From a virus: 41,720 bases of DNA. Positions 7,682 to 26,534 of the stretch are shown in pieces; the first letter of the stretch is position 1, and every line of letters begins with the position of its first letter. The translations under genes and the position numbers were made by a program. The stretch spans positions 1 to 41,720 of IMG/VR virus record IMGVR_UViG_3300002132_000135; one strand, given 5' to 3'. A model generated the notes under the pieces. It had not been told where the DNA came from, made no database searches, and worked only from the letters and a program-made list of their open reading frames with translations.

Positions 7682-8071
7682 ATGGCATATTCAGATAAAG
7701 TATTAGATCACTACGAAAATCCACGCAACGTGGGTACAATGGACGAAAAAGCTAATAATGTTGGTACAGGAATGGTTGGTGCACCTGCTTGCGGAGACGT
7801 TATGCGACTTCAGATTCAAGTGAACGACGAAGGCATTATCGAAGATGCTAAGTTTAAAACATACGGTTGTGGATCAGCCATAGCATCAAGTTCTCTTTTA
7901 ACTGAATGGGTTAAAGGTTTAAACATTGATGAAGCTGAGAAAATAAGAAATACGGAAATAGCTCAAGAGCTAGCTCTGCCTCCTGTTAAGATACATTGTT
8001 CGGTACTTGCCGAAGATGCAATCAAGGCAGCAGTGAAAGATATTAAATCTAAGAGAAGCCAATGTCAATAA
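7682..8071 (+). CDS. iscU: IscU-type Fe-S cluster scaffold
   Basis: A 129-residue IscU. The three cluster-ligand cysteines occur at the same positions as in bacterial IscU: Cys37 (GAPACGD, with Asp39), Cys63 (YGCGSAIAS) and Cys106 ([11 protein letters not shown], with His105). The LPPVK motif used to recruit the HscA/HscB chaperones is at 99-103, so the phage protein could plug into the host Isc machinery. It builds [2Fe-2S] clusters from sulfur supplied by a cysteine desulfurase; no IscS is encoded here. It overlaps iscA by 10 bases, so the two should be made together. Confidence 0.95.
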
Positions 8072-9699: not shown

Positions 9700-9711
9700 T
9701 ATTTATAAATA
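9700..9711. promoter_or_regulatory. Palindromic divergent late promoter (TATTTATAAATA)
   Basis: TATAAATA on the plus strand (9704-9711) and on the minus strand (9707-9700) overlap by four bases, making a 12-base palindrome. The plus copy would transcribe the virion-type genes from 9792, the minus copy the EF-hand membrane protein. Confidence 0.6.
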
Positions 9712-9791: not shown

Positions 9792-9986
9792 ATGGCACTT
9801 AAAATAAATGGTCTAGACGTAGTCAGCGATACATATGTACTATCAAATGTGGCAAATACAGATGTAACTACGCAAACAACAATCAATTCTGCGATTATAA
9901 ACCAAAACAACATTTTGCGAATCTATGATTCTGCAGGCACTGAAATCCGCACCCTATTTTGTGCAAACGCAACAGCACAACCCTAA
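9792..9986 (+). CDS. Small virion-associated-type protein
   Basis: A 64-residue protein, Asn/Thr-rich, with an AGGAGA ribosome site. It starts MALKINGLDVVSDTYVLSN and ends TLFCANATAQP. It is 13 bases upstream of the large structural gene and shares the late promoter at 9704, so it is probably a virion component or assembly factor. Not assigned to a family. Confidence 0.65.
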   Translation: MALKINGLDVVSDTYVLSNVANTDVTTQTTINSAIINQNNILRIYDSAGTEIRTLFCANATAQP

Positions 9987-9999
9987 GTGAGGATTCAAC

Positions 10000-11445: not shown

Positions 11446-11459
11446 TAGGAGAAAATATA

Positions 11460-12038
11460 ATGGCAGAATTTAGTGGTAGAATTATTAGTGCAGAGTACAT
11501 GAACACTGATTATTCTCTAATTAAAGTACGATATAACGATAATGGTATAAACGCCATCTATCATCTTGAAGTAGATCCAAACAATGCTGACTTTCAAGCT
11601 TTGGAAGCAGACGGTTGGGATGCAGAGAAGATCATTGACGCAACCGCAGAATCTAAGCGTGTTCAATCTAATGCTTGGAATTTAGAAGTTAATGCTGCAG
11701 CAAAAATGCTTGTGGATGAAATTCTGGCTAGTGAAAAAGACATGCTCGCTAGTCAAAAAGACATGCTCGCTAGTGAAAAATACATGCTCGCTAATACCAA
11801 AAAAGATTTAGCAGATTTGTCACGTTCTACTAGATTGAGTGTTCAAGATATGCTTGCAGAAGTTTGGACTCATATTTTAGATAAAAACACCGACAAGGAT
11901 ATGCTATTTAAGTTTAAGCTCTGGACACTAGAACAAGATTTTGTAAAAGAAATTTCAAAAGAACAGAAGTCAGCTATTCGCAAATCGACAAGAGTTACTC
12001 AATTATTTTCTATTATAGATAAATTACTGGAAGATTAA
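11460..12038 (+). CDS. Virion-associated-type protein with heptad repeat
   Basis: A 192-residue protein. Residues 1-60 look beta-rich (FSGRIISAEYMNTDYSLIKV), residues about 75-120 form a helix containing three copies of the heptad ASEKDML, and the C-terminal part is helical and charged. Similar two-part proteins sit next to fibre genes in marine phages, where they may be assembly chaperones or fibre tips. Its stop overlaps the sulfotransferase start (TAATG), linking virion genes to the enzyme cluster. An AGGAGA ribosome site precedes the start. Confidence 0.65.
   Translation: MAEFSGRIISAEYMNTDYSLIKVRYNDNGINAIYHLEVDPNNADFQALEADGWDAEKIIDATAESKRVQSNAWNLEVNAAAKMLVDEILASEKDMLASQKDMLASEKYMLANTKKDLADLSRSTRLSVQDMLAEVWTHILDKNTDKDMLFKFKLWTLEQDFVKEISKEQKSAIRKSTRVTQLFSIIDKLLED
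11727..11789 (+). repeat. Three tandem 21-base repeats in frame
   Basis: Three adjacent 21-base copies of GCTAGTGAAAAAGACATGCT(C), differing only at a few bases, encode a seven-residue heptad (ASEKDML, ASQKDML, ASEKYML). The unit is a multiple of three, so copy-number change keeps the frame and lengthens the coiled coil in whole heptads. Confidence 0.9.
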
Positions 12039-12742
12039 TGACTTTTGTCGTAGTCGGACATCAAAGAACGGGTACTACGTATCTGATGAACTTTGTTAAC
12101 GAAAAAGAACAATTCAAAGAAGTTAAATTTACAACAGAATTCTTTTTAGGTAGAAATTATTTAGATAATGAAGCTGTTTGGATAAAAGATTTGATAAAAG
12201 ATTATTATTTAAACACATATGATAAAAAACAAATAGAAAGAAAATTCAATTATTTTGAAATATTAAAAGAGGAAGGAAGATTACATCCATTTAAAGTTAT
12301 TCCTTTTGAATTAATAAAAAACGGTTATGAAAAAAGATTACATGAGCTACTTGACGGAATTGAAATTTTAACTATAGATCGTGATCCATTTGATTCCTTT
12401 TTAAGCTATATGTATCAACGTAAAACAAATTGGGCCAATTCCCATAGATTTATTAATCGTAAACAGAATATAGAAGAAGTTACTTTTAATGCTGATACAT
12501 CAGACATTGAATCTTATTTAAAAATATATAAAGTAGAAAAGGATTTCATATCCTCTTTAAATATTTTCCATAGATTTGAATATGAAGAATTGACTCCGGA
12601 AAATATGAAAAACTTTTTTGGTATAAAAAATAAAAAAGATATTTATGTGCCGATGAATATAAACTACAGGCAATTGATTACAAACATTGATTTTGTAGAA
12701 AATAAATTTAAGGAATTGTATATAAAATATGTGGTCAACTAA
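12038..12742 (+). CDS. PAPS-dependent sulfotransferase-like protein
   Basis: A 234-residue protein. The N-terminal GHQRTGTTYLMNF (residues 7-19) is the 5'-phosphosulfate-binding loop of sulfotransferases, and IDRDPFDSFLSYMYQ (113-127, Arg115 and Ser120) matches the 3'-phosphate-binding strand-helix. Such enzymes move sulfate from PAPS to hydroxyl groups of glycans, lipids or proteins. It opens the accessory cluster, its ATG overlapping the stop of the structural gene. The next gene starts within its last codons (14-base overlap). Confidence 0.8.
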   Translation: MTFVVVGHQRTGTTYLMNFVNEKEQFKEVKFTTEFFLGRNYLDNEAVWIKDLIKDYYLNTYDKKQIERKFNYFEILKEEGRLHPFKVIPFELIKNGYEKRLHELLDGIEILTIDRDPFDSFLSYMYQRKTNWANSHRFINRKQNIEEVTFNADTSDIESYLKIYKVEKDFISSLNIFHRFEYEELTPENMKNFFGIKNKKDIYVPMNINYRQLITNIDFVENKFKELYIKYVVN

Positions 12743-13901
12743 TAAAAATCATCCTCTCAAAGTCACTATAGACGTAAGTACTTATTGCAATGCAGGTTGC
12801 CCGCAATGTACGAGAACAGATCGAAATGGATTAGGAAAAGTTGGATGGATGCCCTTGGTTCAATGGAGTATAGATCAATTTAAGGAAGCTATAAAACCTG
12901 AAGATTTTGAATACATTGGACAAATATCTTTTGTTGGTTCATATGGTGATTGCATAATGAATAAAGACATATTTCAAATTATTGAATATTGTATTAAAAA
13001 TGGGTGCAAGGTAAGAGTTGAAACTAATGGATCAATACGAGATGAAGAATGGTGGTGGAATCTTGGTGTTATGGGAGGAGAACTTCTTCAGGTGAGATTT
13101 GATGTAGATGGCATTGATCAAGCCATGCATTCAAAATATAGAAGATTTACAAGTCTTCAAAAGGTTTTAGATAATATGTACATGTTTAGTCAAACCAAGG
13201 CAAAAACTGCAACACAAACTGTAGTATTTAAACACAATCAGGATTATTTGAATGAAATAGAGCAACTTTGCTTACAATATGGATCTTTATGGCATACAAA
13301 GGTTATCTCTGATAGATTCTTTGATGGTAAAACCTTTGAGTTCATAAATGAAGATGGTGAAAGGGAAGTATTAGAAGAAGCAGATAGAAATGTTTTTAGT
13401 AAACCTTATATTGTTGGTGCTCTTAAAAAGGTAGAAAAACCACAACCAGAAACAAAGGTTTTGGATAAAAAAGTTGATGTCCAGCCAAAAACTACTAAAA
13501 AATATGAAAGACAAATACATTTAGACGAGACCATTAAATGTAGATGGGCTTTACCTATGAATAGTCTTTATGTCATGCACGATGGATCTGTTATTCCATG
13601 CTGCTACGTCGGATGGTTTCATACGAGAGTCTATAATCCTGATCCGGAATATGATTCGAAAAGTAAATATAAACAAACAATTATGTCGAATCCTACATTT
13701 AAGCATCTAATAGATAGCCAGGATGAAATTAGTGTATTTAAACATTCTATAAAAGATATTTTACAATCAAAATGGTATTCTAAATCTCTTCCTCAGAGTT
13801 TATCTTCTGATAATCCCATGCCTATGTGTGTAGTGAATTGTTCTAATAGAGTAAGAAAAGAACATCAACTTCGTGAGGATTCAGAGTATGACTACCGATA
13901 A
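12729..13901 (+). CDS. Radical SAM enzyme with SPASM-like C-terminal domain
   Basis: A 390-residue protein. The radical SAM cluster motif C-x3-C-x2-C is at Cys20, Cys24 and Cys27 (STYCNAGCPQC). A glycine-bearing strand VRVETNGS (95-102) fits the barrel. The C-terminal part has Cys271 (IKCRWAL), the pair Cys291-Cys292 (GSVIPCCYVGW) and MCVVNCSNR near the end, the pattern of a SPASM auxiliary-cluster domain. Family members modify peptides or sugars using a 5'-deoxyadenosyl radical. Substrate unknown. It needs Fe-S clusters and an electron donor, both of which the phage may supply. Confidence 0.88.
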   Translation: MWSTNKNHPLKVTIDVSTYCNAGCPQCTRTDRNGLGKVGWMPLVQWSIDQFKEAIKPEDFEYIGQISFVGSYGDCIMNKDIFQIIEYCIKNGCKVRVETNGSIRDEEWWWNLGVMGGELLQVRFDVDGIDQAMHSKYRRFTSLQKVLDNMYMFSQTKAKTATQTVVFKHNQDYLNEIEQLCLQYGSLWHTKVISDRFFDGKTFEFINEDGEREVLEEADRNVFSKPYIVGALKKVEKPQPETKVLDKKVDVQPKTTKKYERQIHLDETIKCRWALPMNSLYVMHDGSVIPCCYVGWFHTRVYNPDPEYDSKSKYKQTIMSNPTFKHLIDSQDEISVFKHSIKDILQSKWYSKSLPQSLSSDNPMPMCVVNCSNRVRKEHQLREDSEYDYR

Positions 13902-14499
13902 TATAATCCTTGTTAAACACGGCAATAAATATCATGCAGGTCATGTAAATAGATTAGCAGATCAATTATTTAAATATTATCCAACAGCAAATTTTTATTG
14001 TTATACCGATGATTCAACTGATGTTGAAATAACAACAATACCAATTTTTAAAAGACCGACATTGCGCCTTTGGTGGAATAAACTTGCGATGTTTAGTAAG
14101 GATTTCCCAGTGCAAGGAAAATGCCTTTATTTTGATTTGGATATGGATATTAAGGCAGATCCTTCCTCATTTATAACTTGGAATGGTCTGACCGTACTTA
14201 GGGACTATTGGAAGGATGGTAAGTATATGCCAAAACACGCATATAATGTTCATATAAATAGTTCTGTAATTACTTGGACGGCTGGTGAACAGCATCATAT
14301 TTGGGAACATTTTTTATCTAACAAAGATTACTTTATGAGAAAATATGTTGGTATTGATAGATTTATTGTCCACGAAAAGATACCACATAACACGTTTAGA
14401 GATGGATTAGTTAATAGCGTGGCAAATCCATATAATGGTAGAACACTAATTGATATGTATAATGGGATAAATTATGAATTACCGAGAGTTAGCATATAG
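13888..14499 (+). CDS. GT-A-like glycosyltransferase
   Basis: A 203-residue protein. The central motif YFDLDMDIKAD (about residues 85-95) is a DxD-type metal and nucleotide-sugar site, preceded by RLWWNKLAMF, as in GT8-like enzymes. The same layout recurs twice in the 576-residue protein at 15118. The start at 13888 has GAGGA upstream; it overlaps the radical SAM gene by 14 bases. It probably transfers a sugar onto the molecule processed by this cluster. Confidence 0.7.
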   Translation: MTTDNIILVKHGNKYHAGHVNRLADQLFKYYPTANFYCYTDDSTDVEITTIPIFKRPTLRLWWNKLAMFSKDFPVQGKCLYFDLDMDIKADPSSFITWNGLTVLRDYWKDGKYMPKHAYNVHINSSVITWTAGEQHHIWEHFLSNKDYFMRKYVGIDRFIVHEKIPHNTFRDGLVNSVANPYNGRTLIDMYNGINYELPRVSI

Positions 14500-15121
14500 A
14501 AATGCTTTAGAATCAGTTAGAGCAATCTATGAAAAATCAAAATACGATCCTGAAGTAGATCTATATCGTTCTATAGATATAATTAACTCAGTGAGTACAT
14601 GGCAGTTCGAAGGTAAAGAATGGCTGGTGCGTGAGTTACTTCCTTTCTTGCCAGAAAAGACAGAAAAAATTGCGATCCTTGGCAGTTGGTACGGACTTGT
14701 TTCTATTATCCTAAGAAATTACGTTTCAGAAGATGTAATTATACGTAACATTGATTCTGATCCAGTTACAGAAGTGATCGGATATGGGTTGTTAAAAGGC
14801 ATGGATTCTTCTCATAAAAATACACAATTTATAGTTGACGACGCGGTTGATCATGTTATAGAAAAAAGAAAAACCTATGACGTGTTTATTAATACAAGCT
14901 GTGAACACATGGAAAAAGATGATATTCGATTTATAGTAGAAGGAAAAAAGCCTTCAACGGTAGTTTGTTTACAATCTAACAATTATCATTCTGTTCAAAG
15001 TCATATTAATACCTACGACAGTTTAGAAGAATTTGTTGAAGAATTAAATTTAGTATCTGTATATTATGCAGGAACTCTTAAAGCAAAAGATTATGATAGA
15101 TATATGGTGATTGGTCAATGA
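14474..15121 (+). CDS. Class I SAM-dependent methyltransferase
   Basis: A 215-residue protein. IAILGSWYG (67-75) is motif I for AdoMet binding, NIDSDP (92-97) supplies the acidic residue after strand 2, and VFINTSCEHM is motif IV-like. It overlaps the preceding gene by 26 bases and the next by 4 (ATGA). The tightly overlapped starts suggest translational coupling along the cluster. Substrate unknown. Confidence 0.8.
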   Translation: MNYRELAYRNALESVRAIYEKSKYDPEVDLYRSIDIINSVSTWQFEGKEWLVRELLPFLPEKTEKIAILGSWYGLVSIILRNYVSEDVIIRNIDSDPVTEVIGYGLLKGMDSSHKNTQFIVDDAVDHVIEKRKTYDVFINTSCEHMEKDDIRFIVEGKKPSTVVCLQSNNYHSVQSHINTYDSLEEFVEELNLVSVYYAGTLKAKDYDRYMVIGQ

Positions 15122-16848
15122 AAAGAGTTATTTTCACGACTTTTGACGATATATCAAATTCTAACAATCTCGATAACACGAATGAGTTGCTTGTAAAAGA
15201 ATATTTTGATCGTCTAATTCAAAACAAAAAAGACTATTCTGATAATATTGGAGTTAAGTTTATCTTTTATCATAATACGATGAAAGATTTTTTACTTACC
15301 GATGATTTAGAGTTTACAAAGGTAAACCTGTATAAGCATCATCTTATGGCCCAGCTTGCAGAAGAATACGACGAAGTCATGTATGTTGATATGGATGTTT
15401 TGTTTAATACTAACGAAAACGTATTTGAATCTTTAGACCTCAGCAAAGGTATTCACGTAAAAGACCAAGACGAAGACATACTTAATAAGAATATTGAAAC
15501 TTTGTTTTTGAAATCTAACGGACTACGTTCACCTACTTTAAAGTATCATATTACAAAAGATATGCTTGGTGGCAAAGACAATCACGTAATTAATACTGGA
15601 ATTATCATTGGAAAAAGCGAACATATTAAACAGATAAAATTCTCAGATAGATTGTCTGAAATGGTCGAGCTTGTTGAATCTATAAAGAAAAACAATACAA
15701 AACGAAAAGATACTTCTTATGTCCGCAGACATTATTATCCGAATAACGAAGCACTCTTTTCATATATTTTAGAAGAATATAGTATTCCTTATGTTTTGCT
15801 TGCTGATGAATGGCATACGATGTATTACGATAAGCCAGCCGATTATGTTGGATGCAAAGGAAAGATTATTCATTTTATCAATAAGAAATTTAATAGATTT
15901 TTCAATGATAAAACTAAATGTATATTTTCTTTATACGTAAAAATCGATGACGACAAATTAGATAATCCTCCAACCTCAAAAATTGAACCACTTGGTAATA
16001 AAAGCAAAAGAACACAGATTCAGTTTGAAAAACATTATGATGATCTTATAAAAGATAAACAGGAGTATGCTCAGAATATTGGAGCTGATTTTATATTATA
16101 TGAAAATGATGATAGATATCAAGAGTTTAAAAAAAGGTTTAGAAATCTATCAGAGTATGATGTAGTAAATTTATACAAGATTTACTGTTTAGACGAGTTA
16201 ACCAAGCAATATGATTTAGTTTGTTATCTAGATTTTGACGTTTATTGCAGAAGAAAAGATGTTGATATATTTGAAAATGTTCCTATGGAATACGCAATTG
16301 CTTGCCAATTTCAAACTAAAGATGAGTTAAAAATTACTAACACTATTCAGTATTTTAATTCTTTTATAGTTGATTTTAGGAACCCTCATTCTAAATATTG
16401 GAATACCCATGCGCTATTGACTGAAAAAGATTTAGATGGAGACTATCCAGTTTTTAACACAGGAATTATCGCCGCGTCTAGATATGTAATGGAAAAATTA
16501 GATTATTTCTCAGATATTGATGAAGTAATTAATACTATGACTGAGCTAAAAGAAGATGAGTTTTCAATGTATCCAGAAAACATACGTCTTTCTTTTGGAT
16601 ACGACAACGAAAGTATTTTTGCGTATAAATGTAAAGAGAATAACCTTCTAACTTCTAATCTTTGGAGTCCGTTATGGCATGGAAAGCGTTCTTTAAAGTA
16701 TGCCGAAGCATATGATAAATTTAATATAGAAAATACTTTAAGAGGAAAAATAGTAAAAAAAGAGTTTGACGCTTGGTGTATTGAAGAAGATCCAGTATTC
16801 GTACACTTTATTTCTAAACAATTTGGATTAGTATTTGATGAAAAATGA
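15118..16848 (+). CDS. Tandem double glycosyltransferase
   Basis: A 576-residue protein made of two copies of the same domain. DxD motifs occur at YVDMDVLFN (Asp91, Asp93) and YLDFDVYCR (Asp371, Asp373), exactly 280 residues apart. Other landmarks repeat too: KDYSDNIGVKFI and QEYAQNIGADFI before them, NTGIIIG (158-164) and NTGIIAAS after them, HFINKKF (251-257) and HFISKQF near the end. This is a GT8-like fold twice in one chain, so it may add two sugars in turn or polymerise. Both sets of metal-binding aspartates are intact. Confidence 0.85.
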   Translation: MKRVIFTTFDDISNSNNLDNTNELLVKEYFDRLIQNKKDYSDNIGVKFIFYHNTMKDFLLTDDLEFTKVNLYKHHLMAQLAEEYDEVMYVDMDVLFNTNENVFESLDLSKGIHVKDQDEDILNKNIETLFLKSNGLRSPTLKYHITKDMLGGKDNHVINTGIIIGKSEHIKQIKFSDRLSEMVELVESIKKNNTKRKDTSYVRRHYYPNNEALFSYILEEYSIPYVLLADEWHTMYYDKPADYVGCKGKIIHFINKKFNRFFNDKTKCIFSLYVKIDDDKLDNPPTSKIEPLGNKSKRTQIQFEKHYDDLIKDKQEYAQNIGADFILYENDDRYQEFKKRFRNLSEYDVVNLYKIYCLDELTKQYDLVCYLDFDVYCRRKDVDIFENVPMEYAIACQFQTKDELKITNTIQYFNSFIVDFRNPHSKYWNTHALLTEKDLDGDYPVFNTGIIAASRYVMEKLDYFSDIDEVINTMTELKEDEFSMYPENIRLSFGYDNESIFAYKCKENNLLTSNLWSPLWHGKRSLKYAEAYDKFNIENTLRGKIVKKEFDAWCIEEDPVFVHFISKQFGLVFDEK

Positions 16849-17572
16849 TCCGCACGAATGGAACATTGTTCCTGTTCCAATATATAAAGATGACTCTGTA
16901 TTTGACATAAAATTAAATCCAGTGAAAGGTGTGAAGCACCCATTTGAGTGCGATCTATATTCTGGTGTTAAAGACGTAATAGACTTTGAAAATAAAAAAG
17001 TACTTGATTACGGCGGTAGCTTTGGTAATCTTATAATAAGCAGCAATGGTAAAATTAAAGAAGAAAACTATACTTGTTTAGATGTAGATAATGTTGCACT
17101 TGAAATGGGAAGAAAAAGGTTTCCTCATTCTACTTGGCTTTATCATAATAGATATAACCCAATGTATAATTTTCAAGGTAATGATACTTTTTCGCATCAA
17201 CTAGAAACATATGATATAATTTTTGCGTATAGTGTTTTCACACATACTTCATATGAAGAATTTATTTGGACTATAGAAAAGCTTAAGCAATACTTAAATC
17301 CAAACGGCAGTATCTTTGTTACTGTTTGTTTGCAGCAAGATACGAGACTACTAGAATGGTATCGGTCACGAAGAATTGACGAATTTGGTAATCAAGATAA
17401 CTATGAACTTAATGATTCTTACATATGTATTACGGATAACATTCAATCAGAAATTATTCCAAATAATTGCAATAGACTGTTGACATTTTACGATGAAGAG
17501 TTTATAATGAAAATTGGAAAAGTGCATAAAGCAAAAATAGCACAGACACTTATAGAAATAGAGAAGCAATGA
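16838..17572 (+). CDS. Class I SAM-dependent methyltransferase
   Basis: A 244-residue methyltransferase. VLDYGGSFG (55-63) is motif I, CLDVDNVALE motif II, and YDIIFAYSVFTHTS motif IV, all in the order of the small-molecule methyltransferase families. The start at 16838 overlaps the previous gene by 11 bases. A perfect sigma70 promoter is embedded near its 3' end (17480-17508). It ends with a 4-base overlap to the next gene. Confidence 0.88.
   Translation: MKNDPHEWNIVPVPIYKDDSVFDIKLNPVKGVKHPFECDLYSGVKDVIDFENKKVLDYGGSFGNLIISSNGKIKEENYTCLDVDNVALEMGRKRFPHSTWLYHNRYNPMYNFQGNDTFSHQLETYDIIFAYSVFTHTSYEEFIWTIEKLKQYLNPNGSIFVTVCLQQDTRLLEWYRSRRIDEFGNQDNYELNDSYICITDNIQSEIIPNNCNRLLTFYDEEFIMKIGKVHKAKIAQTLIEIEKQ
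17480..17508 (+). promoter_or_regulatory. Intragenic consensus sigma70 promoter
   Basis: TTGACA (17480-17485), 17 bases, TATAAT (17503-17508), preceded by GACTG as in the intergenic early promoters. It lies in the 3' end of the methyltransferase gene and points toward the 2-oxoglutarate oxygenase and desaturase genes starting at 17569. Confidence 0.7.
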
Positions 17573-18021
17573 AAGTTAATATTGATCTTATCTTACTAGA
17601 ACTTGATTCGTATTTACCCGAATACCAGAATCAAATCTCGCTGCAGTGTGTAGAGGGAAATCCTGATCCGTTTTATGGAATTGGAAGAATAACTGATTTA
17701 GATCATGAAGAAAAAGATTTTGTTGAACCAATATTTAAAGATTTAGCATATACAAACACAATTATTAAAAAGCTAGGAATGTATAGAACAAGAGTTATGC
17801 GCATGCCGCCACAGACTTGTTACACTTACCACCGAGATTATACTCAACGCATGCACATTCCTTTGATTACAAACGAAAGATGCTTTTTCGTAATTGATGA
17901 TGAAGTTTCACGTTACCCGGCTGATGGCAGCTACTACTTAATAAATACTACAAAGAAGCATACATTTGTTAATGCTTCAACAGAATATAGAATACATATT
18001 GTTGGGTGTATAAATGGCTGA
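17569..18021 (+). CDS. Aspartyl/asparaginyl hydroxylase-like oxygenase
   Basis: A 150-residue protein with the double-stranded beta-helix signature: His88-x-Asp90 (YTYHRDYTQ), HIPLIT (96-101), a distal His131 (TKKHTFVNAS) and an Arg in RIHIVG (Arg141) to bind 2-oxoglutarate. It is shorter than most family members but keeps the iron triad. It would hydroxylate a protein or small molecule using Fe(II), O2 and 2-oxoglutarate. A larger paralogue of the same design is at 23954. Confidence 0.78.
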   Translation: MKVNIDLILLELDSYLPEYQNQISLQCVEGNPDPFYGIGRITDLDHEEKDFVEPIFKDLAYTNTIIKKLGMYRTRVMRMPPQTCYTYHRDYTQRMHIPLITNERCFFVIDDEVSRYPADGSYYLINTTKKHTFVNASTEYRIHIVGCING

Positions 18022-18661
18022 ATCGTTATTAATATTAATATCAATAGTAATAGGAATAATTTGGAGTCAAATTATTTCTCATTGGGGTGCAAGCATCTTA
18101 TTGCACCGTTACTATTGCCATAAACAATTTGAAGTTCCAGTTTGGTTTGAAGTTATTGGTCTTTATATGCTTATGGTTGCTGTAATTAGAACACCAATTG
18201 GATGGATTGCAAGTCATAGAATGCATCATCACCATTCAGATGGACCAGAGGATCCACACGCGGTAAAACATGTTGGATTCTGGAAAGTACTTTTAACCAC
18301 TTGGGATATTCCAAATATTCCCGTCCGTTATGCAAAAGATTTATATGCGAATCCTCGTCTTGTTTTTTGTCACAAATATTGGAAGCATATCTGGGTAGCA
18401 AATTGGGTTATAAGTTTCTTAATTAGTCCTTACTTCTTCGTAGCGTTTGCCTTAGTACCGTTTGTATTTGCAAAAATTGGGTTTGGTTTACTTAACACCG
18501 TTGGACATAAAACCGAAGGTGGTGCTAATGTTCCTTGGCTTAACTTGTTTATTGCCGGAGAAGGTTATCATAAAGAACACCATTATGATTCTAAAAAAAT
18601 TAGATTACACAAATATGATACTGCGGGCTGGATAGCAGAAAAGCTTTTCACCAGAGGATAA
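18014..18661 (+). CDS. Membrane fatty-acid desaturase (short form)
   Basis: A 215-residue desaturase with all three histidine boxes: HRYYCH (31-36), HRMHH (68-72) and HKEHH (186-190). Hydrophobic segments flank them (about 3-25, 45-62, 128-160). This is the stearoyl-CoA-type delta-9 desaturase family, which puts a cis double bond into an acyl chain at a di-iron centre. It needs an electron donor such as ferredoxin or rubredoxin; the phage encodes a ferredoxin at 31797. It overlaps the upstream gene by 8 bases. Confidence 0.9.
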   Translation: MAESLLILISIVIGIIWSQIISHWGASILLHRYYCHKQFEVPVWFEVIGLYMLMVAVIRTPIGWIASHRMHHHHSDGPEDPHAVKHVGFWKVLLTTWDIPNIPVRYAKDLYANPRLVFCHKYWKHIWVANWVISFLISPYFFVAFALVPFVFAKIGFGLLNTVGHKTEGGANVPWLNLFIAGEGYHKEHHYDSKKIRLHKYDTAGWIAEKLFTRG

Positions 18662-18668
18662 AATTGTT

Positions 18669-20324
18669 ATGAAAATACAACTGGGATCTTTTAGTATTCC
18701 ACGAAGTTTGCCGTATATACCATACAGCGCAGCTTTGTTAGAATCCTATATTAAAAATAGCGAAGATCCGCCCGAATGCGAGTTCATAGATCCTATCTAT
18801 GAATATAACGATATGCTAAGCACGGAAGCAGATATTATAGGATTAACTGCTTATGTTTGGAGCCAAGATCATGTTGATAAAATCGCCGAAGAACATAAAA
18901 AGAAAAATCCAAATTGCATAATCATTTACGGCGGACCAAATATTCCTGTCTCTCCAGTAGAGTGGTTAGAATACGAAGGAGAAAGACCGTGGGTAGATGT
19001 TTTTGTTGCTGGATCTGGTGAAGAAGTATTTTTACAATTACTTCGCGAATATCCTAAGTTCACACAAAAGTGGTACAAGCTTAATAAAACTAACAAGTAC
19101 AAATATGGCACACCAATTCCATATTTAGATGGCACGCTTGATAAGTTCTTAAATAATACAGAAAAGAAATTTGTTGCCGTATTGGAAACCAACAGAGGCT
19201 GCCCATTTAAGTGCGCGTATTGTGACTGGGGTGATGCTACTGGTAGTGTCGTAAGTAAATATGATGACGATGTAAACTATAAAACAATCAGTAAAATTCT
19301 GTCTAGTACTGCTATGTCAGGTGTTAAAATTATTGATGCCAACTGGGGCATGTATGAACGTGATCTTGACATGACAAAATATATGCGAGATTATAAGCGT
19401 CCTGAAGTATTCATTAGTCTTTGCGGTACTGCTAAAAACAGTATTAAATACGTTCCTGAGATTAGTAAGATATTCTTTAAAGATAATTTTGGTGCCGAGA
19501 ACGGTCATTGGACTCCTTTAAAACTAGGTATTCAAAGTTGGAGCCTTAAGACTCTTGCTTACAACGATCGTAGTAATATCAAAACGGAGCAGTTAGAATA
19601 CTTACTAAATTACTATAAGGAACACGACATTCCGTATCACTCAGAGCTCATTCTAGGGCTTCCAGGTGAAACTCCTGAGAGTTGGTTATATACATTGGAT
19701 AAAGACTTTGGGCACGGTGTGGAGACACAGGCTTTCCACGCGCTGGAAGCTGTTCCAAATATGCCACTACTTTTAAAGCATAAGTTAGAGTACAAGTTAA
19801 GTGTACATCACGCATTTGCAACAAGAGATAACATTTACCAAACAACAAACCAGTTCTTCCATAGAAATAGAAACAAAGTGTTTGATGATTTTGTAACTGA
19901 TCGTGATAAAACAAAAATTGTAAGAAAAGATCTTATTAATAGTTGTTTTAGTTTTACTACTGACGAGCTATTAACAATGTATGATTACACATGGTGGATG
20001 AATACGTTTAATAACACAAAGATGCTATCTGATATTAAAACACCAAGTGTGGAAATTATTGCATTCTTTGATAACTTAGATAACACACCATTCTGGAAAG
20101 CTCGAGTTGAAGAGCACCGTGCTCATTGGCGTGAAGCTATGATTGACGGCAAGATTCGTAGTACAGGTGCTATTAGATACTGGTTCCATACCATTTTTAG
20201 ATCTGACGAACTTATGCATGTTGCAGAAAACTTTGAACAAGCCCAAGATGAACTTGGCAGAAAACTTACACCATTTAAAAAATCACTGAGAGTTTATGAT
20301 TATGAATATTCCGTTCTTAAATAA
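18669..20324 (+). CDS. Radical SAM enzyme with B12-binding-like N-terminus
   Basis: A 551-residue protein. Residues about 1-130 have a Rossmann-type fold resembling cobalamin-binding domains (ADIIGLTAYVWS, IIIYGGPNIPVSP, VDVFVAGSGEEVF), but the DxHxxG cobalamin-ligand motif is not seen. The radical SAM motif is Cys178-x3-Cys182-x2-Cys185 (NRGCPFKCAYCDWG), and LILGLPGETPESW matches the later barrel strand. Related enzymes include BchE-like cyclases and radical methyltransferases. Eight bases separate it from the desaturase. Substrate unknown. Confidence 0.88.
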   Translation: MKIQLGSFSIPRSLPYIPYSAALLESYIKNSEDPPECEFIDPIYEYNDMLSTEADIIGLTAYVWSQDHVDKIAEEHKKKNPNCIIIYGGPNIPVSPVEWLEYEGERPWVDVFVAGSGEEVFLQLLREYPKFTQKWYKLNKTNKYKYGTPIPYLDGTLDKFLNNTEKKFVAVLETNRGCPFKCAYCDWGDATGSVVSKYDDDVNYKTISKILSSTAMSGVKIIDANWGMYERDLDMTKYMRDYKRPEVFISLCGTAKNSIKYVPEISKIFFKDNFGAENGHWTPLKLGIQSWSLKTLAYNDRSNIKTEQLEYLLNYYKEHDIPYHSELILGLPGETPESWLYTLDKDFGHGVETQAFHALEAVPNMPLLLKHKLEYKLSVHHAFATRDNIYQTTNQFFHRNRNKVFDDFVTDRDKTKIVRKDLINSCFSFTTDELLTMYDYTWWMNTFNNTKMLSDIKTPSVEIIAFFDNLDNTPFWKARVEEHRAHWREAMIDGKIRSTGAIRYWFHTIFRSDELMHVAENFEQAQDELGRKLTPFKKSLRVYDYEYSVLK

Positions 20325-21018
20325 GCCAGTTGTAAAATTCCATAGCGAATCCACTCTTATTACTGATGAGTACCCAATTTACCCTGCTAAAGAGTATAAG
20401 CGCAAATGGGTTAAAAACTGTGCTCTAGCATTTCAAAAATATAAAAAAGTAATAGATGGAAGATCTTCTCTTATCACTGCAGCTAAATGTCCAGGCATGC
20501 GTGATGTTATGGAATCAGGATATATTGTAACAACATGGCATGATTTTACTATTGAAACCAGCGAAGAGAAATACGAAATATTTTATCCAACTTATTTTGA
20601 TGAATTCATAAAGCCATTAAATTTATCGCATCCAAAGATTACGACATTTGATACTAAATCAAATCCAATGAAGATTCCAACTGGAAGCAATTACGATCAA
20701 ATCTTTAAAATTTTCATTCCATATAGCTTTGATATTCCAAAGGGATATGAATTATTGATAATGCCTATTCAATATGATGACGATCCGAAGTTTAGTGCTT
20801 GTTATGGCAAGTGTGATGGATTCCAATCTGATTTTAATATTCATATTTTCTGGCATACTAAAAACGGAAGAGTTACAATCCCAGCTGGTACACCACTGTG
20901 CCAGCTAGTTCCAATTAAAAAATCTAATATTTCTTTAGAAATAAAAGAAGCTACACCAAGTATACTTAAGAAAGCAAAAGCAAAGCTGTTTCATAAGATG
21001 ACAAGGTTTATACTATGA
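20302..21018 (+). CDS. Hypothetical protein, possibly DUF6065-like
   Basis: A 238-residue protein. Segments such as KCPGMRDVMESGYIVTTWHDF and GRVTIPAGTPLCQLVPI suggest a beta-rich, cupin-like fold, and the wording recalls the DUF6065 family of phage proteins; I hold that loosely. Start at 20302 or 20296, both overlapping the radical SAM gene. It lies in the middle of the enzyme cluster and is joined to the next gene by a 4-base overlap. Confidence 0.5.
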   Translation: MNIPFLNKPVVKFHSESTLITDEYPIYPAKEYKRKWVKNCALAFQKYKKVIDGRSSLITAAKCPGMRDVMESGYIVTTWHDFTIETSEEKYEIFYPTYFDEFIKPLNLSHPKITTFDTKSNPMKIPTGSNYDQIFKIFIPYSFDIPKGYELLIMPIQYDDDPKFSACYGKCDGFQSDFNIHIFWHTKNGRVTIPAGTPLCQLVPIKKSNISLEIKEATPSILKKAKAKLFHKMTRFIL

Positions 21019-21623
21019 TAACTAATGGTTACAATGGATATCCGCCTCTTACATTGTTTACAAAGTTGAATTATCCATCACGTACTTTTACGACTACTGA
21101 ACCATCTAAAGAAATAGAAATAATATTTAATAAAGTTGCTGTATCAGGAAAGGCTAGATCTAAAAATTATAAGATGGATGAGTACCTTATACATAACACG
21201 CTTGCTTACACAGTGACAATGATAGAAGATAGACCTGTGCTTGCATCTTTAGTTTGGTCGCGACCAATGTACAACGGAATCGCAAGGTTATGTACACGTT
21301 ACTGCATTGACCCAGATTTCTCATTAGTTAATTTTGGCAAAGGTACTGATGGTATGCGATTAGATACAATGGATCATATCATACAACAAATAGATATATG
21401 TAAAAAATTAGGATATAACGATTTCTTTATTGGAAGAGAAGATTGGAAATCAAAAGGTAGAAGAACAAGAAAAATAGCAAAGCAAATGAGCATATATACT
21501 GGTATAGAATGGAAAGTATCAAATGACGAAGTTTTAGTAAGCACTACACCAGAAGATGACCAAAGCTGGCAATATATAATATACAACAACAGGAAAGATT
21601 TTGACTATGAAAATGAGCTCTAA
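21015..21623 (+). CDS. Hypothetical protein, possibly acyltransferase-like
   Basis: A 202-residue protein. LARLCTRYCIDPDF and GTDGMRLDTMDHIIQQIDICKKLGYNDFFIGRE have the strand-helix rhythm of a GNAT-type acyltransferase, but no acetyl-CoA loop can be named. It overlaps the upstream gene by 4 bases and the TauD-like gene by 17. Conserved-looking member of the cluster without a safe function. Confidence 0.5.
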   Translation: MITNGYNGYPPLTLFTKLNYPSRTFTTTEPSKEIEIIFNKVAVSGKARSKNYKMDEYLIHNTLAYTVTMIEDRPVLASLVWSRPMYNGIARLCTRYCIDPDFSLVNFGKGTDGMRLDTMDHIIQQIDICKKLGYNDFFIGREDWKSKGRRTRKIAKQMSIYTGIEWKVSNDEVLVSTTPEDDQSWQYIIYNNRKDFDYENEL

Positions 21624-22641
21624 ACACCCTTACGCCGTCTATATTGATGATGTAGACTTCGATGAAATGACTGATGATCTGTGGATGGAAATTGGCAAAA
21701 TCCACATGAAAAACTTGGTTACAATTATTCGTAATTGTAACGTAAAACATAAAGATATTTCTAAATGGACAAAAAAGTGGGGTCCTAGTCGTTACAGTGG
21801 TATGTACTTTCTTTCTTTACATTATCCAGAATACTCTGCAAAAGAAATCATTATAATGGCACTAAAGGACAATCCTAAAATTGCTCCTGCACATTGTGAT
21901 CTTGTAAAGAATAGATTTAAAACTAAAGGTCCTTCTGGTACACAACGTGTTACTGATATGCGTGATAAGCGCGGCGATCACACCGGCATTTTTCCAGATG
22001 GCGAATTGAAATGGCATTCTAATGAAGCGGGAAACCATGTCTTTGCGCCAAGCGTTGCTCTATTAGGTGTACAAAACATGGAAGGTTCTTCGACAGGATT
22101 TCTTGAAACAGCTACTTATTACGAAAATTTATCAGAGTCATTTAGATCAGAACTCAATGATATGATAGTAATTCATAGACATAAGCCAGGAATGCTACAT
22201 GTTAAAGATCTTAAAGATCAAGAAGAAATGATGCGGTTGAATATGAACCCTGAACCAGAAAGTTATCTGCCTATGGTAATTCAAAGTCCGGGTGGAATCA
22301 AAGGTTTGCATTATTCTATTAATACTGTCGATGGTATTGTTGGTATGTCTAAAGAAGAAAGCGGCAAGCTTTTTGAAAAAATTAATAAAGAACTTATGCA
22401 GTATGCTTGGGATCATTGGTATGAAAACGATAATGATTGGTTATTCTTCGATAACAGTATTACTAATCATCGCCGTCTTGGAGAAGTAAACAACAGACTT
22501 GGTCTAAGAATTCAGCATGGATATGAAAACATTCAAATTAAAAACTACAATCCATACTTCCAAGAAGAGCACTCTAAAATTTATGACGATAGATTAGCAG
22601 CACTATATAAATTCACAAAGGATAACTTTAATGAAGATTAA
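21607..22641 (+). CDS. TauD/TfdA-like oxygenase with altered iron triad
   Basis: A 344-residue protein. The region KWHSNEAGNHVFAPSVALLG (about 136-155) matches the metal-binding strand of TauD-family 2-oxoglutarate dioxygenases, and DNSITNHRRLG (about 282-292, His288) the distal histidine and following arginines. The usual H-x-D is His137-Ser-Asn139 here, with Glu140 next. The enzyme may bind iron through Asn or Glu, or have a changed reaction. The start at 21607 has AGGAAAG upstream; it overlaps the next desaturase by 11 bases. Confidence 0.75.
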   Translation: MKMSSKHPYAVYIDDVDFDEMTDDLWMEIGKIHMKNLVTIIRNCNVKHKDISKWTKKWGPSRYSGMYFLSLHYPEYSAKEIIIMALKDNPKIAPAHCDLVKNRFKTKGPSGTQRVTDMRDKRGDHTGIFPDGELKWHSNEAGNHVFAPSVALLGVQNMEGSSTGFLETATYYENLSESFRSELNDMIVIHRHKPGMLHVKDLKDQEEMMRLNMNPEPESYLPMVIQSPGGIKGLHYSINTVDGIVGMSKEESGKLFEKINKELMQYAWDHWYENDNDWLFFDNSITNHRRLGEVNNRLGLRIQHGYENIQIKNYNPYFQEEHSKIYDDRLAALYKFTKDNFNED

Positions 22642-23410
22642 AGCATACCACAGTTTTAAACTAGTAAAATCTATCCATTACCTTGCGTGGCTTTCTATTC
22701 CGTTTGTTCTTGTCTTTCCATCAACTTTTAGTTTGCCGGCATTTTTAATTGGATTAGTACTGCTGACTTCTTTGGGGTCAAGTGCAGCCTTGCATAGATA
22801 TTTTTGTCATCAATCATTTAAGACCGGCAAAATAAGGCATTGGATTCTTGCTTTGCTTGGCACTCTTTCTACACAGGGTTCTATTTCTCATTGGGTACCA
22901 TACCACAGGTCTCATCATAAAAACTCTGATACTGAAGATGATCCAATCTCGCCAACATTTGTAGGATTTTGGAAAGCCTTTCATGCCATTCAAGATCTTG
23001 GAAGCTATAAGGATATAAAGACTCGTGATATTGTAATTATGATGAGAGATCCTGCAGTAAAATTCTTTTATGATTGGTATTGGCCAAATATTATTCTTTA
23101 TGTTGTTATTCTTGGGTTGATTAATCCAATACTCATACTTAATATGTATTTTCTACCAATTTTTATGGTTCGATTTGTTTTTGGATTACAAAATACTTTT
23201 GGGCATGGTGTACCCGTGTTTGATGGTTATAAAAATCACGCAACAAAAGACAACAGCTATAATAGTGTATTTGTTAATATGATTACTTTTTGTCTTGGTG
23301 AAACTCTTCATAACAATCACCACCATAATCCGGGTAAATATAGTTATAAAGAACATTGGTGGGAATTAGATTTAACTGGGTTTTTAATTGAAAAAGTGTT
23401 TATAAAATGA
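22631..23410 (+). CDS. Membrane fatty-acid desaturase
   Basis: A 259-residue second desaturase. Histidine boxes: HRYFCH (55-60), HRSHH (92-96) and HNNHH (227-231). Hydrophobic segments at about 18-50, 68-85 and 152-190 give the usual four-pass layout. It differs enough from the 215-residue enzyme at 18014 that the two probably act on different chains or positions. The next gene overlaps by 4 bases. Confidence 0.92.
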   Translation: MKIKAYHSFKLVKSIHYLAWLSIPFVLVFPSTFSLPAFLIGLVLLTSLGSSAALHRYFCHQSFKTGKIRHWILALLGTLSTQGSISHWVPYHRSHHKNSDTEDDPISPTFVGFWKAFHAIQDLGSYKDIKTRDIVIMMRDPAVKFFYDWYWPNIILYVVILGLINPILILNMYFLPIFMVRFVFGLQNTFGHGVPVFDGYKNHATKDNSYNSVFVNMITFCLGETLHNNHHHNPGKYSYKEHWWELDLTGFLIEKVFIK

Positions 23411-23961
23411 AAGTCTTTATAACAGGACATACAAGTGGAATTGGTTTAGCAACTTTTGTATTATTAAAAGAGCAAGGTTACAATGTAATTGGTGGAAGCC
23501 GAAGAACTGGTTTTGATATATCTGATGAAAGGCTTTATTCTCAAATTTTTGATTGTGATGTATTCATTAATAATTCATATCATAAAACCGGTCAACTAAA
23601 CATATTAGAAGCAGTGTACAACGAATGGCAAAATAAAAGCAAAACGATAATAAATATAGGTAGTTGGGGTAAAGATAACCAACAGGGTAGACCACTAACT
23701 CGTTTGAACTATAACGTAGCTAAGAAAGCTTTAGAGACATACAGCTTTTGGATTGCAGAAAATGATTTAGTTTGTCGCAGTATGGTTTACAATCCTGGAT
23801 TTGTAGATACTCCATTGGCTCGGAAAGGCTGCGAAGATTGGCCTAAAGAAAAGATAGAAGAAGTATTGAAACGTATAATGGATCCTAAAGAATGTGCAAA
23901 GACTATTATTTTTATGATTCAAAACAAATATAAATTTAGAGAGATTACACATCATGCTTAA
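23407..23961 (+). CDS. Short-chain dehydrogenase/reductase
   Basis: A 184-residue SDR. The nucleotide-binding TGHTSGIG is at 6-13, a catalytic serine in INIGSWG (Ser86) and YNVAK at 102-106 (Tyr102, Lys106), followed by NPGFVDTP. It is shorter than the typical 250 residues, lacking part of the substrate lid. It would reduce or oxidise a carbonyl or hydroxyl group with NAD(P)H in the cluster's pathway. Confidence 0.9.
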   Translation: MKVFITGHTSGIGLATFVLLKEQGYNVIGGSRRTGFDISDERLYSQIFDCDVFINNSYHKTGQLNILEAVYNEWQNKSKTIINIGSWGKDNQQGRPLTRLNYNVAKKALETYSFWIAENDLVCRSMVYNPGFVDTPLARKGCEDWPKEKIEEVLKRIMDPKECAKTIIFMIQNKYKFREITHHA

Positions 23962-24805
23962 AAGACAACACCTACCATTAATGGCTAAACTTAATTTTAA
24001 GATTGATATCGATAAATTGAGAAACGAGTTCTTTGAACTTGGCTATGATGATTGGTCTAAATATAATGGACTAAGTTACGGTAGCAATACCGAAGATGGT
24101 TTAGTAGTGCGTCGAGTGTTGTTAGAGTATTTTCTTACAGACGAAGAAAAAGCTGAACGTGAAGGCAAGCTTGTTGCTGACGGTGGTGAAGCTTATAAGA
24201 TGCTTTGCTTAACAGAGTTTAACGGTGATCCTAACGTGCACAATAAAAATCTTGCTGCTAAACTTGCAGAAGAAGGTATGGATCCACGTAAATTTGCACG
24301 CCGCATGGAAAAAATTAGTGATCCATCACACCCAGACTATACTCCTATTGCAGATGAAAAGATGTATGATAAGCGTAATAAATTCTGTACAGGTTATGTT
24401 GCTGAAGTATTAGATATGATTGAACAAAACATTGGGCATGTTGCTCGTACTCGTTATGCTGTACTTAAAGCTGGCGAAGAAATTAAACCGCACCTTGATA
24501 TTAACACTGATAAAGCCGTAAGAATTCATATTCCACTAATTACACACGAAGATGTAGTGATTGGGACAAAAGGTAAAAAGAGAACCGTTGAGTTACATAT
24601 GCCAGCAGATGGTAGTGTTTGGTTCTTGAATCAAGCATACGAACACTGGGTTAAAAATAATAGTGACGTAGACAGAGTTCATCTAGTTGTCGTGGTCACC
24701 GGCCAAAACGGTATTCTAGAAGCTAATGAACAATATTTGGATGAGTACACCATCCCTGAAGAAGCATCGTGTGCACACAATCTATATGCCGAGGAGAACG
24801 TATAA
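23954..24805 (+). CDS. Aspartyl/asparaginyl beta-hydroxylase-like oxygenase
   Basis: A 283-residue protein. KPHLDIN (His180-x-Asp182), RIHIPLITHED (190-200), YEHWVKNNSD (His231) and DRVHLVV (Arg241) give the iron triad and 2-oxoglutarate-binding arginine of the Asp/Asn hydroxylase family. It shares the HIPLIT motif and spacing with the 150-residue enzyme at 17569, so the two are paralogues. The N-terminal 150 residues are extra and unrecognised. It overlaps the next gene start (TAATG). Confidence 0.82.
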   Translation: MLKRQHLPLMAKLNFKIDIDKLRNEFFELGYDDWSKYNGLSYGSNTEDGLVVRRVLLEYFLTDEEKAEREGKLVADGGEAYKMLCLTEFNGDPNVHNKNLAAKLAEEGMDPRKFARRMEKISDPSHPDYTPIADEKMYDKRNKFCTGYVAEVLDMIEQNIGHVARTRYAVLKAGEEIKPHLDINTDKAVRIHIPLITHEDVVIGTKGKKRTVELHMPADGSVWFLNQAYEHWVKNNSDVDRVHLVVVVTGQNGILEANEQYLDEYTIPEEASCAHNLYAEENV

Positions 24806-25122
24806 TGGCTATTAAACAAACCGTAGTTTTTACAAATTCAGCAGCAAGCTTTACTAGCATTGACCAAGCTTTGGCTTCAATGAATGCTGCACTTGTAGAT
24901 GTTGCGCAAAAAGAAGAACTCGATACTCGTAATGTTGCAGGCGAATTTACTGCTGATGTTTGGTTTGATTTGAGCACTCAAACAGTTACTATAAACAGAA
25001 CTTGGTTAAGTGAAGCTAATTTTAATTCTTATAAAGCAAGCTGGCCTGGAGAAGGCCCTAATAAAATTTCGTTCGAAGAAGCTGGTTGGATTTGTTCACC
25101 AGAAACTACTGAAGTAATTTAA
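24805..25122 (+). CDS. Hypothetical small protein
   Basis: A 105-residue protein starting MAIKQTVVFTNSAASF. It alternates polar and hydrophobic residues and has many Ala, Thr and Asn, resembling small virion proteins rather than enzymes. The start at 24805 has GAGGAGAA upstream and is coupled to the hydroxylase. Its end overlaps the end of the minus-strand sulfotransferase by 4 bases. Confidence 0.65.
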   Translation: MAIKQTVVFTNSAASFTSIDQALASMNAALVDVAQKEELDTRNVAGEFTADVWFDLSTQTVTINRTWLSEANFNSYKASWPGEGPNKISFEEAGWICSPETTEVI

Positions 25123-25955
25123 ACATAAAACTGATATTCTTCTATAAGATCTAATAATTTAGATTTTACCTCTTCGTAATTTACAATAGCTTTAGAATAA
25201 TCCATCTTCATATCTATTACCAGATTGTTTTCATAATCGTTTGGTAATGAATGATGCCATGATGCGTCATCTAATATTGTACTCAAAGCAGTAAATATTT
25301 TTTCGGTTGTGTTTAAATCTTCGTAATATACAACACTGCAAGTCAAGCCTTTATCGTGTATAACACTTTCTAAATTATAGATGGCTTGACTCTGTTTAAT
25401 AACTGCTCTTGCAACTTCTTCATAATCACTGATAACAACTCCGTTGGATAGATTTTCAGCATGAGTGCGCATGCTATTGTCTAGCTGCCTTACTGTGAAT
25501 TGTCTTGTTTCCTTTGCATATAAAAGACTAAGAAGCTGGTCTAAAGTATTCCTTCTTTTTGTAATCACAAAATGTCTGTCACTAAAGAATTCAATTATTT
25601 CTTTAGGTGTTTCGCTTACTTGCAAAGTACCTTTGATATGATAGTTTCTACCATTCTCTTTTTCTTGTCTTAGTACATCAAGCTTATGTAGATTTCTTTC
25701 CTTAAGATTTTTAAACATGTATGGATAAATAAAATGCATATGGATGCAATCATCATAAACCAACGGTATCATTTCAGTTGGGAATGTTTGGTTGACTCTG
25801 TGATTGGTTACAACTACACTAGAATTAAATTGCAAAAATAATTCACTATGATTTTTTATTTCTAGTAATCCGTATTTTTGCTTAACGTAGTTTGCAGTGA
25901 GCTCGTACAATACTGTACTTCTTGTTCTCGGTGGACTTAAAAAGAATGGAGACAT
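25119..25955 (-). CDS. PAPS-dependent sulfotransferase-like protein (antisense)
   Basis: A 278-residue protein and the only minus-strand gene between 9.8 and 41.7 kb. FLSPPRTRSTVLYEL (5-19) is the 5'-phosphosulfate loop and ITKRRNTLDQLLSLLY (131-146) the 3'-phosphate-binding element. It is only distantly like the sulfotransferase at 12038. The start at 25955 has GAGGG upstream and lies 9 bases from the divergent start at 25965. A minus-strand TATAAATA lies at 26108-26115 and could drive it. Confidence 0.8.
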   Translation of the reverse strand: MSPFFLSPPRTRSTVLYELTANYVKQKYGLLEIKNHSELFLQFNSSVVVTNHRVNQTFPTEMIPLVYDDCIHMHFIYPYMFKNLKERNLHKLDVLRQEKENGRNYHIKGTLQVSETPKEIIEFFSDRHFVITKRRNTLDQLLSLLYAKETRQFTVRQLDNSMRTHAENLSNGVVISDYEEVARAVIKQSQAIYNLESVIHDKGLTCSVVYYEDLNTTEKIFTALSTILDDASWHHSLPNDYENNLVIDMKMDYSKAIVNYEEVKSKLLDLIEEYQFYV

Positions 25956-25964
25956 TATACCCTC

Positions 25965-26534
25965 ATGAAACAATATATAGTGGGCCCAAAATGGGATCAA
26001 AGAGTCATTACAATTGATCCTAAGGGTGATAAAATAGGTATCGCTATGTCTGGCGGAATTGATAGCTGGGTTCTATACAACTTGTTACCAAACAAAGATA
26101 ACATAATTATTTATACCTTTGAAACACCAAGCGGTGTTGATGATGTAGAAACCGTATATAAGCTAACTGGAAGAGATGATATTATAGTGTTGCCAACTAT
26201 GCCAGAAGATCCTACGCCAGTTAAGAATGGTTTAAAAGTGCTTGTTAGAGAATATGGCTTAAACCAGCTATATACGGGCGTAAACCAAGTTCCTCATTAC
26301 AAGTACTTTCCAGAATTTCAAGAGGAAAATGAGCCACCACGTCCTTGGAGAATAGATTCTGATGTACTAATCACCCCTTTCTTACATCTGTACAAATATC
26401 ATATCATTTGGCTGGCTAAAGATCTCGGTATAGATCTATCTGGAACTCAGTCATGTACAACACAACCAGTAGGCCATTGTGGTACATGCTGGTGGTGCAG
26501 AGAGAAGCAGTGGGCCTATGACCAGCTAAAATAA
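25965..26534 (+). CDS. QueC-like PP-loop ATPase with zinc site
   Basis: A 189-residue protein. The pyrophosphatase loop SGGIDSW is at 29-35, and the C-terminus has Cys164, Cys172, Cys175 and Cys178 (QSC, HCGTCWWC), the four-cysteine zinc site of QueC (7-cyano-7-deazaguanine synthase). QueC makes preQ0 for tRNA or, in some phages, DNA deazaguanines. No FolE, QueD, QueE or transglycosylase is seen in the window, so it may act with host enzymes or on another carboxylate. It ends the accessory cluster. Confidence 0.75.
   Translation: MKQYIVGPKWDQRVITIDPKGDKIGIAMSGGIDSWVLYNLLPNKDNIIIYTFETPSGVDDVETVYKLTGRDDIIVLPTMPEDPTPVKNGLKVLVREYGLNQLYTGVNQVPHYKYFPEFQEENEPPRPWRIDSDVLITPFLHLYKYHIIWLAKDLGIDLSGTQSCTTQPVGHCGTCWWCREKQWAYDQLK

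Follow-up and report, generated by a model that had tools for sequence, protein, structure and literature searches.

A probable late-expressed, modular tailoring operon in a T4-like marine phage

The IMG/VR virus record IMGVR_UViG_3300002132_000135 (41,720 bases; hereafter the window, meaning the whole stretch analysed) carries at 12038-26534 a 14.5-kb cassette of putative tailoring enzymes. Judging by its T4-type replication genes, which encode a clamp, both clamp-loader subunits and a RegA-type repressor (phrog_223, 168, 225, 242), the source is a T4-like marine myovirus; thymidylate synthase and dCMP deaminase are also encoded. In this study, we found that the cassette is probably a late-expressed modular operon, similar in kind to those of the host-recognition (tail-fibre) islands in T4-like marine phages. 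This conclusion draws on the modularity of its arms, the adjacency of tail and island-border genes, and the placement of a late-promoter-like motif.

A conserved core with exchangeable arms

Eight genes at 18014-24805, encoding the desaturase DES1, a B12 radical S-adenosylmethionine (SAM) enzyme, a phrog_7084 protein, a GNAT-like protein, a TauD-type oxygenase, a second desaturase (DES2), a short-chain dehydrogenase/reductase (SDR) and the oxygenase AspH2, occur in the same order in two other phages with 47-89% identity. The carriers are a 275-kb contig (3300021959_006010, L003) and a 118-kb contig (3300006990_000013, L005), of which L004 is a near-identical fragment. An Mtd_N tail gene (6e-10) lies upstream of the core in L003. 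In L005, the core is flanked by nitroreductases, carbamoyltransferases, DegT and radical SAM genes, and it includes, in line between SDR and AspH2, the sulfotransferase-like gene that is inverted in the window. Moreover, an independently assembled contig (L021), binned in the metagenome-assembled genome (MAG) UBA4009, contains the cassette, starting inside 13873-14499, at 99-100% identity, with two genes shorter than in the window. Hence, the cassette is not an assembly artefact, and this match together with the eight-gene synteny argues against chance or a chimera.

Contigs C110, C169 and C16 of the UBA4009 genome, a MAG labelled Bacteroidetes, are 100% identical pieces of the same phage, and C16 may extend beyond the window end. 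Their presence in this bin may reflect contamination or hint at a host; the bin was not accepted as host evidence. A cellular origin of DES1 was looked for in about 295 Bacteroidota genomes; the desaturase matches, in 71 other genomes, were all remote (best 2e-17) and none was DES1-like.

Outside the core, the gene content changes. The closest island relative, L094, has four upstream genes in common with the window (57-75%), as well as relatives of 10000-11445 and 11460-12038. Its left arm is that of the window (glycosyltransferase, NAS-like methyltransferase and double glycosyltransferase), and its right arm is of an aminotransferase type instead. This left arm of glycosyl-, methyl-, sulfotransferase and radical-SAM genes recurs without the eight-gene core. 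On the DES1 tree, the B12-type arm requires at least three changes, and L030-L033, the nearest to the window DES1, carry arms of the other type. The initial annotation had proposed one pathway, which independent scattering of the genes in relatives would count against. Eight genes do stay together and in order, and the outer arms are exchanged; the cassette is thus modular, and a fixed single 18-gene pathway was rejected. Judged by these comparisons, the 14.5-kb block is composite, with three exchangeable parts: a putative glycan arm (12038-17572; sulfo-, glycosyl- and methyltransferases and a SPASM enzyme), a hub (17569-18661; AspH1 and DES1) and an oxidation/methylation arm (18669-24805). 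GC content at third codon positions is lower in the 18 cassette genes than in the 21 other window genes (0.25 vs 0.31; p = 4e-5), so that the cassette looks like acquired DNA.

The cassette is filled by 18 open reading frames (ORFs) of at least 117 aa, 17 on the plus strand and one (25119-26000) on the minus strand. With the longest starts used, 16 of the 17 junctions overlap by 4-37 nt, and the remaining one is a 7-nt gap. The initial annotation had counted seventeen genes, one fewer, and was right that nearly all overlap; the genes starting at 20296, 21015 and 24769 were absent from its list of functions. Its accessory block of named enzyme classes was recovered, the sulfotransferases and the NAS-like methyltransferase being weak calls. 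The cassette and its upstream features are as follows:

9704-9711, plus: T4-type late-promoter-like site TATAAATA, 80 nt ahead of a 64-aa ORF, at the head of a probable transcription unit
9792-9986, plus: 64-aa ORF (MALKINGLDVVSDTYVL...), possibly a small virion protein
10000-11445, plus: 481-aa protein with similarity to Mosig_00097 (32.9%, 1e-23); L005 and L094 have homologues next to the cassette
11460-12038, plus: 192-aa coiled protein, with relatives in L094 and L005 that lie at this border too
12038-12742, plus: sulfotransferase-like, P-loop GHQRTGTTYL (Sulfotransfer_3 2e-4, below cut-off)
12729-13901, plus: radical SAM/SPASM enzyme (1e-8); 16 of the 58 distinct loci encode a related protein
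13873-14499, plus: glycosyltransferase with DxD (phrog_1962 6e-13); 73% identical in L094
14474-15121, plus: SAM methyltransferase, NAS-like, weak (4e-3); 49% identical in L094
15118-16848, plus: double glycosyltransferase with two DxD motifs; 49% over 578 aa in L094
16835-17572, plus: SAM methyltransferase (Methyltransf_12 2e-8)
17569-18021, plus: AspH1, 2-oxoglutarate (2OG) oxygenase of the Asp/Arg-hydroxylase family (1.5e-9); 20 of the 58 distinct loci have a relative
18014-18661, plus: DES1, predicted membrane di-iron desaturase and cassette hub, with invariant histidine/asparagine ligands; 104 viral relatives
18669-20324, plus: cobalamin-dependent radical SAM methylase, TokK/CysS/KedN5-like (TokK 8e-39, CysS 4e-29, KedN5 family 1e-38)
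20296-21018, plus: phrog_7084 protein (PHROG match)
21015-21623, plus: probable GNAT acyltransferase; weak model, profile match to family c8 of the DES1 clusters (1.4e-7)
21601-22641, plus: TauD-type 2OG oxygenase (TauD 6e-13), HxN replacing HxD
22631-23410, plus: DES2, second predicted membrane desaturase (FA_desaturase)
23407-23961, plus: SDR, FabG-like (SDR 3e-5)
23954-24805, plus: AspH2, 2OG oxygenase of the Asp/Arg-hydroxylase family, with weak LpxO/OlsC resemblance
24769-25122, plus: short protein, an ORF call with a doubtful start codon
25119-26000, minus: sulfotransferase-like, P-loop SPPRTRSTVL (profile match 4e-7)
25965-26534, plus: QueC-type PP-loop ATPase (1.5e-7) carrying SGGxDS and, at the C terminus, a cysteine cluster; c54 of other loci is a relative (8.5e-20)

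Further upstream of the cassette, 7682-8071 encodes a NifU-like iron-sulfur assembly protein (3.6e-42), and 251-1012 is an esterase/lipase-like gene (9e-25).

Tail-gene neighbours and late-promoter motifs

A profile built from DES1 and its relative in the Pelagibacter phage Mosig was searched against marine viral sequences and returned 104 relatives, 80 of which were retrieved; with references, these make 84 loci, 60 of them with distinct DES1 sequences. Single sequences, or AspH2 and TauD profiles, returned just 3-5 viral relatives, so that the wider set was revealed by the DES1 profile. Among the 84 loci, DES1 is accompanied by an AspH2-type gene in 74, TauD in 72, an aminotransferase in 62, a methylase in 52, a flavin mononucleotide (FMN) reductase in 41 and a peroxiredoxin in 36; GNAT genes recur as well. 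Out of 50,697 phage records, Mosig is the only one with DES1 (about 76% identical to that of the window). In several loci, a short signal-peptide-like, porin-like protein (cluster c47; L105:9483-9905) directly precedes DES1.

The surroundings of DES1 suggest a setting of the host-recognition-island type. In 17 of the 60 distinct cases, the gene before it is an MTD-type (tropism-determinant) tail gene, 18-117 nt away, and the module lies next to MTD-type or tail-fibre genes in L003 and in Mosig. In the window, the protein encoded at 10000-11445 resembles Mosig_00097, which lies near vrlC at the Mosig island border. The variable block therefore adjoins an island-border gene, as in the host recognition cluster of pelagimyophages, and its content varies in L094.

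Late expression is suggested by TATAAATA. Over distinct loci, this motif lies no more than 75 nt from the start in 29 of 100 cassette genes that come first in a unit and in 10 of 605 interior ones (Fisher 1e-18), with a mean of 2.3 and a maximum of 7 in the shuffle control. Mosig, which encodes the late-transcription factors gp55 and gp33, has the motif ahead of head, neck, baseplate and tail genes and of the aspH-DES1 operon. The window contains 11 sites, against 6.8 expected. The site at 9704 draws its support as a late promoter from the placement of the motif in relatives, and transcription from it may run through the whole of 9792-26534. At the neck end of the Mosig island (L113:39650-44735), there are genes for PcyA, heme oxygenase, four 2OG oxygenases, and endonuclease V-like and ferrochelatase-like proteins, in an order that partly matches cyanophage Sf-FR1.

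Candidate chemistry and its target

The nine-histidine di-metal site of SCD/DesA desaturases is invariant in DES1 and DES2, and the histidine-box pattern occurs in 65 of 65 unique sequences. FA_desaturase matches (E = 1e-9 and 8e-18), a match to SCD1 (8e-23), a DesA family likeness and the hydrophobic segments of DES1 are consistent with acyl-type membrane desaturases. Catalytic motifs are intact in DES1, DES2 and AspH2, the last retaining HxD and the distal histidine; Asp_Arg_Hydrox matches the two AspH genes at 1.5e-9 and 5e-12. The TauD-type protein departs from the HxD/E...H iron triad: HxN (WH(S/A)N) is present in the window protein and in 76 of 80 unique phage copies, and the distal His and Arg are kept. 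This HxN-bearing family spans L030-L109, L015 and L028, and HxN is also seen in a cyanophage relative. In L028 (2022-5055), the TauD relative (45%) lies two genes after an Mtd-like tail gene, with no DES1 in the stretch fetched.

The B12 radical SAM protein (B12-binding radical SAM match E = 2e-7 to 3e-6) scores 132.6 of 700 bits against the KedN5-family NCBIfam subfamily, below the membership cut-off; it is predicted to work like a KedN5-family methyltransferase and is not filed as a member. The protein at 15118 has no Pfam match and is called a glycosyltransferase from its DxD motifs and its relatives, the single-domain ones forming c44. Both sulfotransferase assignments are weak. The 25119 protein has no Pfam match, its P-loop was read in the sequence and its profile match is to a similar phage P-loop family, and searches of solved structures with 12038 and 25119 returned no sulfotransferase. 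For the phrog_7084 protein, the predicted fold has a pLDDT of 29. A dUTPase-like motif in it found no support, as the best PDB match had E = 0.16 and a dUTPase appeared only at 1.2, and nucleotide hypermodification was consequently dropped as a role of the cassette.

We tentatively prefer the view that the cassette remodels, late in infection, an acyl-bearing glycolipid of the envelope with a role as receptor, on account of the constant acyl-type membrane desaturases, the glycan enzymes, the linkage to tail genes and the late timing. The membrane desaturases would introduce double bonds, and the AspH-type oxygenases hydroxyl groups, into the acyl or amino-acyl part of an envelope lipid, the B12 enzyme would C-methylate it, and the SDR and GNAT proteins would complete the modified lipid, with sugar, methyl and sulfate attached by the glycan arm. 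The altered glycolipid or lipopolysaccharide (LPS) would then be displayed on the dying cell, so that progeny with the co-encoded adhesin could avoid sticking to debris and rival phages could be shut out. The decorated lipid of the initial annotation is in line with the occurrence of acyl-chain-type enzymes beside glycosyl- and sulfotransferases; its example, a sulfated glycolipid, is a hypothetical product.

Several observations weigh against glycolipid remodelling or its setting in a host-recognition island. We infer the substrate and every reaction step from family membership, and the order of steps, the surface display and the benefit are likewise conjectural. Among the cassette genes, none was recognised as encoding an acyl carrier, a flippase or a polymerase. 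The best NCBIfam matches of AspH2, LpxO and OlsC, are far below cut-off (19.4 of 500 and 12.8 of 450 bits); among solved structures, those closest to its family profile are L-proline cis-4-hydroxylase and a beta-hydroxylase. Methylases of the KedN5/TokK type are enzymes of natural-product pathways. Furthermore, the cassette in this 41.7-kb fragment is flanked by nuclease/NifU-like and nucleotide/replication genes; no vrlC, neck gene (gp14) or tail fibre was recognised within the window; and the one TATAAATA preceding the run is a single site 2.3 kb upstream of the cassette, weak when taken alone.

The enzymes could instead hydroxylate, methylate, glycosylate or sulfate the tail fibre or adhesin of the same late unit and thereby tune receptor binding, which we regard as unlikely, if still a serious contender. 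Cassette and virion genes have late promoters in common, DES1 stands right behind MTD-type tail genes as described above, some members of the AspH, TauD and SPASM families act on proteins, peptides or amino acids, and cyanophage relatives of phrog_7084 adjoin tail genes and halogenases. However, the universal enzyme, DES1, is by its hydrophobic segments and SCD1 match a membrane-embedded acyl-type desaturase, an unlikely protein modifier, and it stays constant while the adjoining virion genes vary between loci. A diffusible specialised metabolite, such as a modified amino acid or a small lipopeptide, that poisons competitors or acts as a signal is improbable. The KedN5/TokK/CysS-like methylase, the aminotransferase with its pyridoxal phosphate (PLP) site motifs, the several 2OG oxygenases per locus and an arm swapping that recalls natural-product clusters would suit it, but no non-ribosomal peptide synthetase, polyketide synthase, precursor peptide or exporter was recognised in the cassette, and the close link to virion genes and the late timing speak against it.

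Still less probable is an ordinary auxiliary desaturase for membrane fluidity with unrelated neighbours. Viral fatty-acid desaturases with such a proposed role have been described (PMC7300359), whereas here two desaturases keep a fixed order and the same partners, and DES1 is nearly always accompanied by AspH and TauD. We give very little credence to the idea that the genes are fast-exchanging cargo of a hypervariable island without joint function: the arms do exchange, but conserved order, 47-89% identity and intact catalytic residues persist across divergent phages.

We consider it possible, though rather doubtful, that a swappable late cassette, physically linked to a receptor-binding gene, gives the receptor or the virion a chemically new acyl or amino-acyl decoration by means of TauD-type oxygenases in which asparagine replaces the iron-binding aspartate. 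Should the surface-tailoring view be right, phages of abundant marine bacteria would carry adhesins together with matching surface-chemistry enzymes and exchange the two as modules, which would account for changes of host range and the exclusion of rivals. Our results also highlight the HxN TauD proteins, the short membrane desaturases and the phage B12 methylase as candidate enzymes. The one cultured phage with the module is Mosig, whose paired host is Pelagibacter HTCC1062.

Relation to known systems

The pelagimyophage host recognition cluster is an island of variable content, bounded by vrlC and the neck gene gp14, in which tail fibres occur together with GT8-type glycosyltransferases and radical-SAM cassettes, and the Mosig island is of this type (PMC7029224). 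The cassette resembles it in its border gene, 10000-11445, which is conserved in Mosig. No vrlC or neck gene was recognised beside the cassette in the window, and the passages of that source consulted make no mention of a conserved desaturase/TauD/AspH module, of its swapping or of late promoters for it. In the island of Mosig EXVC030M (MT647606), DES1 likewise occurs with genes for AspH, TauD, GNAT, a methylase and radical SAM, and tail-fibre genes adjoin them; its right arm consists of aminotransferase, FMN reductase and peroxiredoxin, whereas that of the window has the B12 radical SAM enzyme, phrog_7084, DES2 and SDR.

Viral fatty-acid desaturases related to stearoyl-CoA desaturase have been presented as fluidity genes (PMC7300359), and viral desaturases are also reported in PMC11480375. 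DES1 falls in the same enzyme superfamily, but here it is one of several enzymes encoded by a probable late operon. Ornithine-lipid and lipid A tailoring (OlsB/OlsC/OlsE/OlsG, LpxO) combines a GNAT-type acyltransferase, an acyl hydroxylase of the Asp/Arg-hydroxylase family, a di-iron membrane enzyme and a methyltransferase. The cassette appears to have all four enzyme types; its LpxO and OlsC matches are very weak, and no protein qualified as an equivalog. In the tryptophan-halogenase cassettes of cyanophages (P-TIM40, Sf-FR1; VirX1 type), a phrog_7084 relative is also paired with an oxidative tailoring enzyme in the neighbourhood of tail genes. In both settings, the phrog_7084 gene begins 29 nt inside the preceding tailoring gene, which is the B12 radical SAM gene in the window and tryptophan halogenase in the cyanophages (L016:7965-8831, L017:9983-10795). 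The cyanophage cassettes have halogenases where the window has the B12 radical SAM enzyme and desaturases.

The initial annotation knew of no described phage pathway of this make-up. For the parts this is too strong, since host-recognition islands with glycosyltransferases and radical-SAM cassettes (PMC7029224) and viral fatty-acid desaturases (PMC7300359) had been described; the open-licence literature searched contained no description of the conserved cluster as a unit, its swapping, its late promoters or the B12-type variant. Altogether, the gene types are already known from such phages; what our comparison adds is the conserved DES1/TauD/AspH module, its exchange, the late-promoter signature and the B12-type variant.

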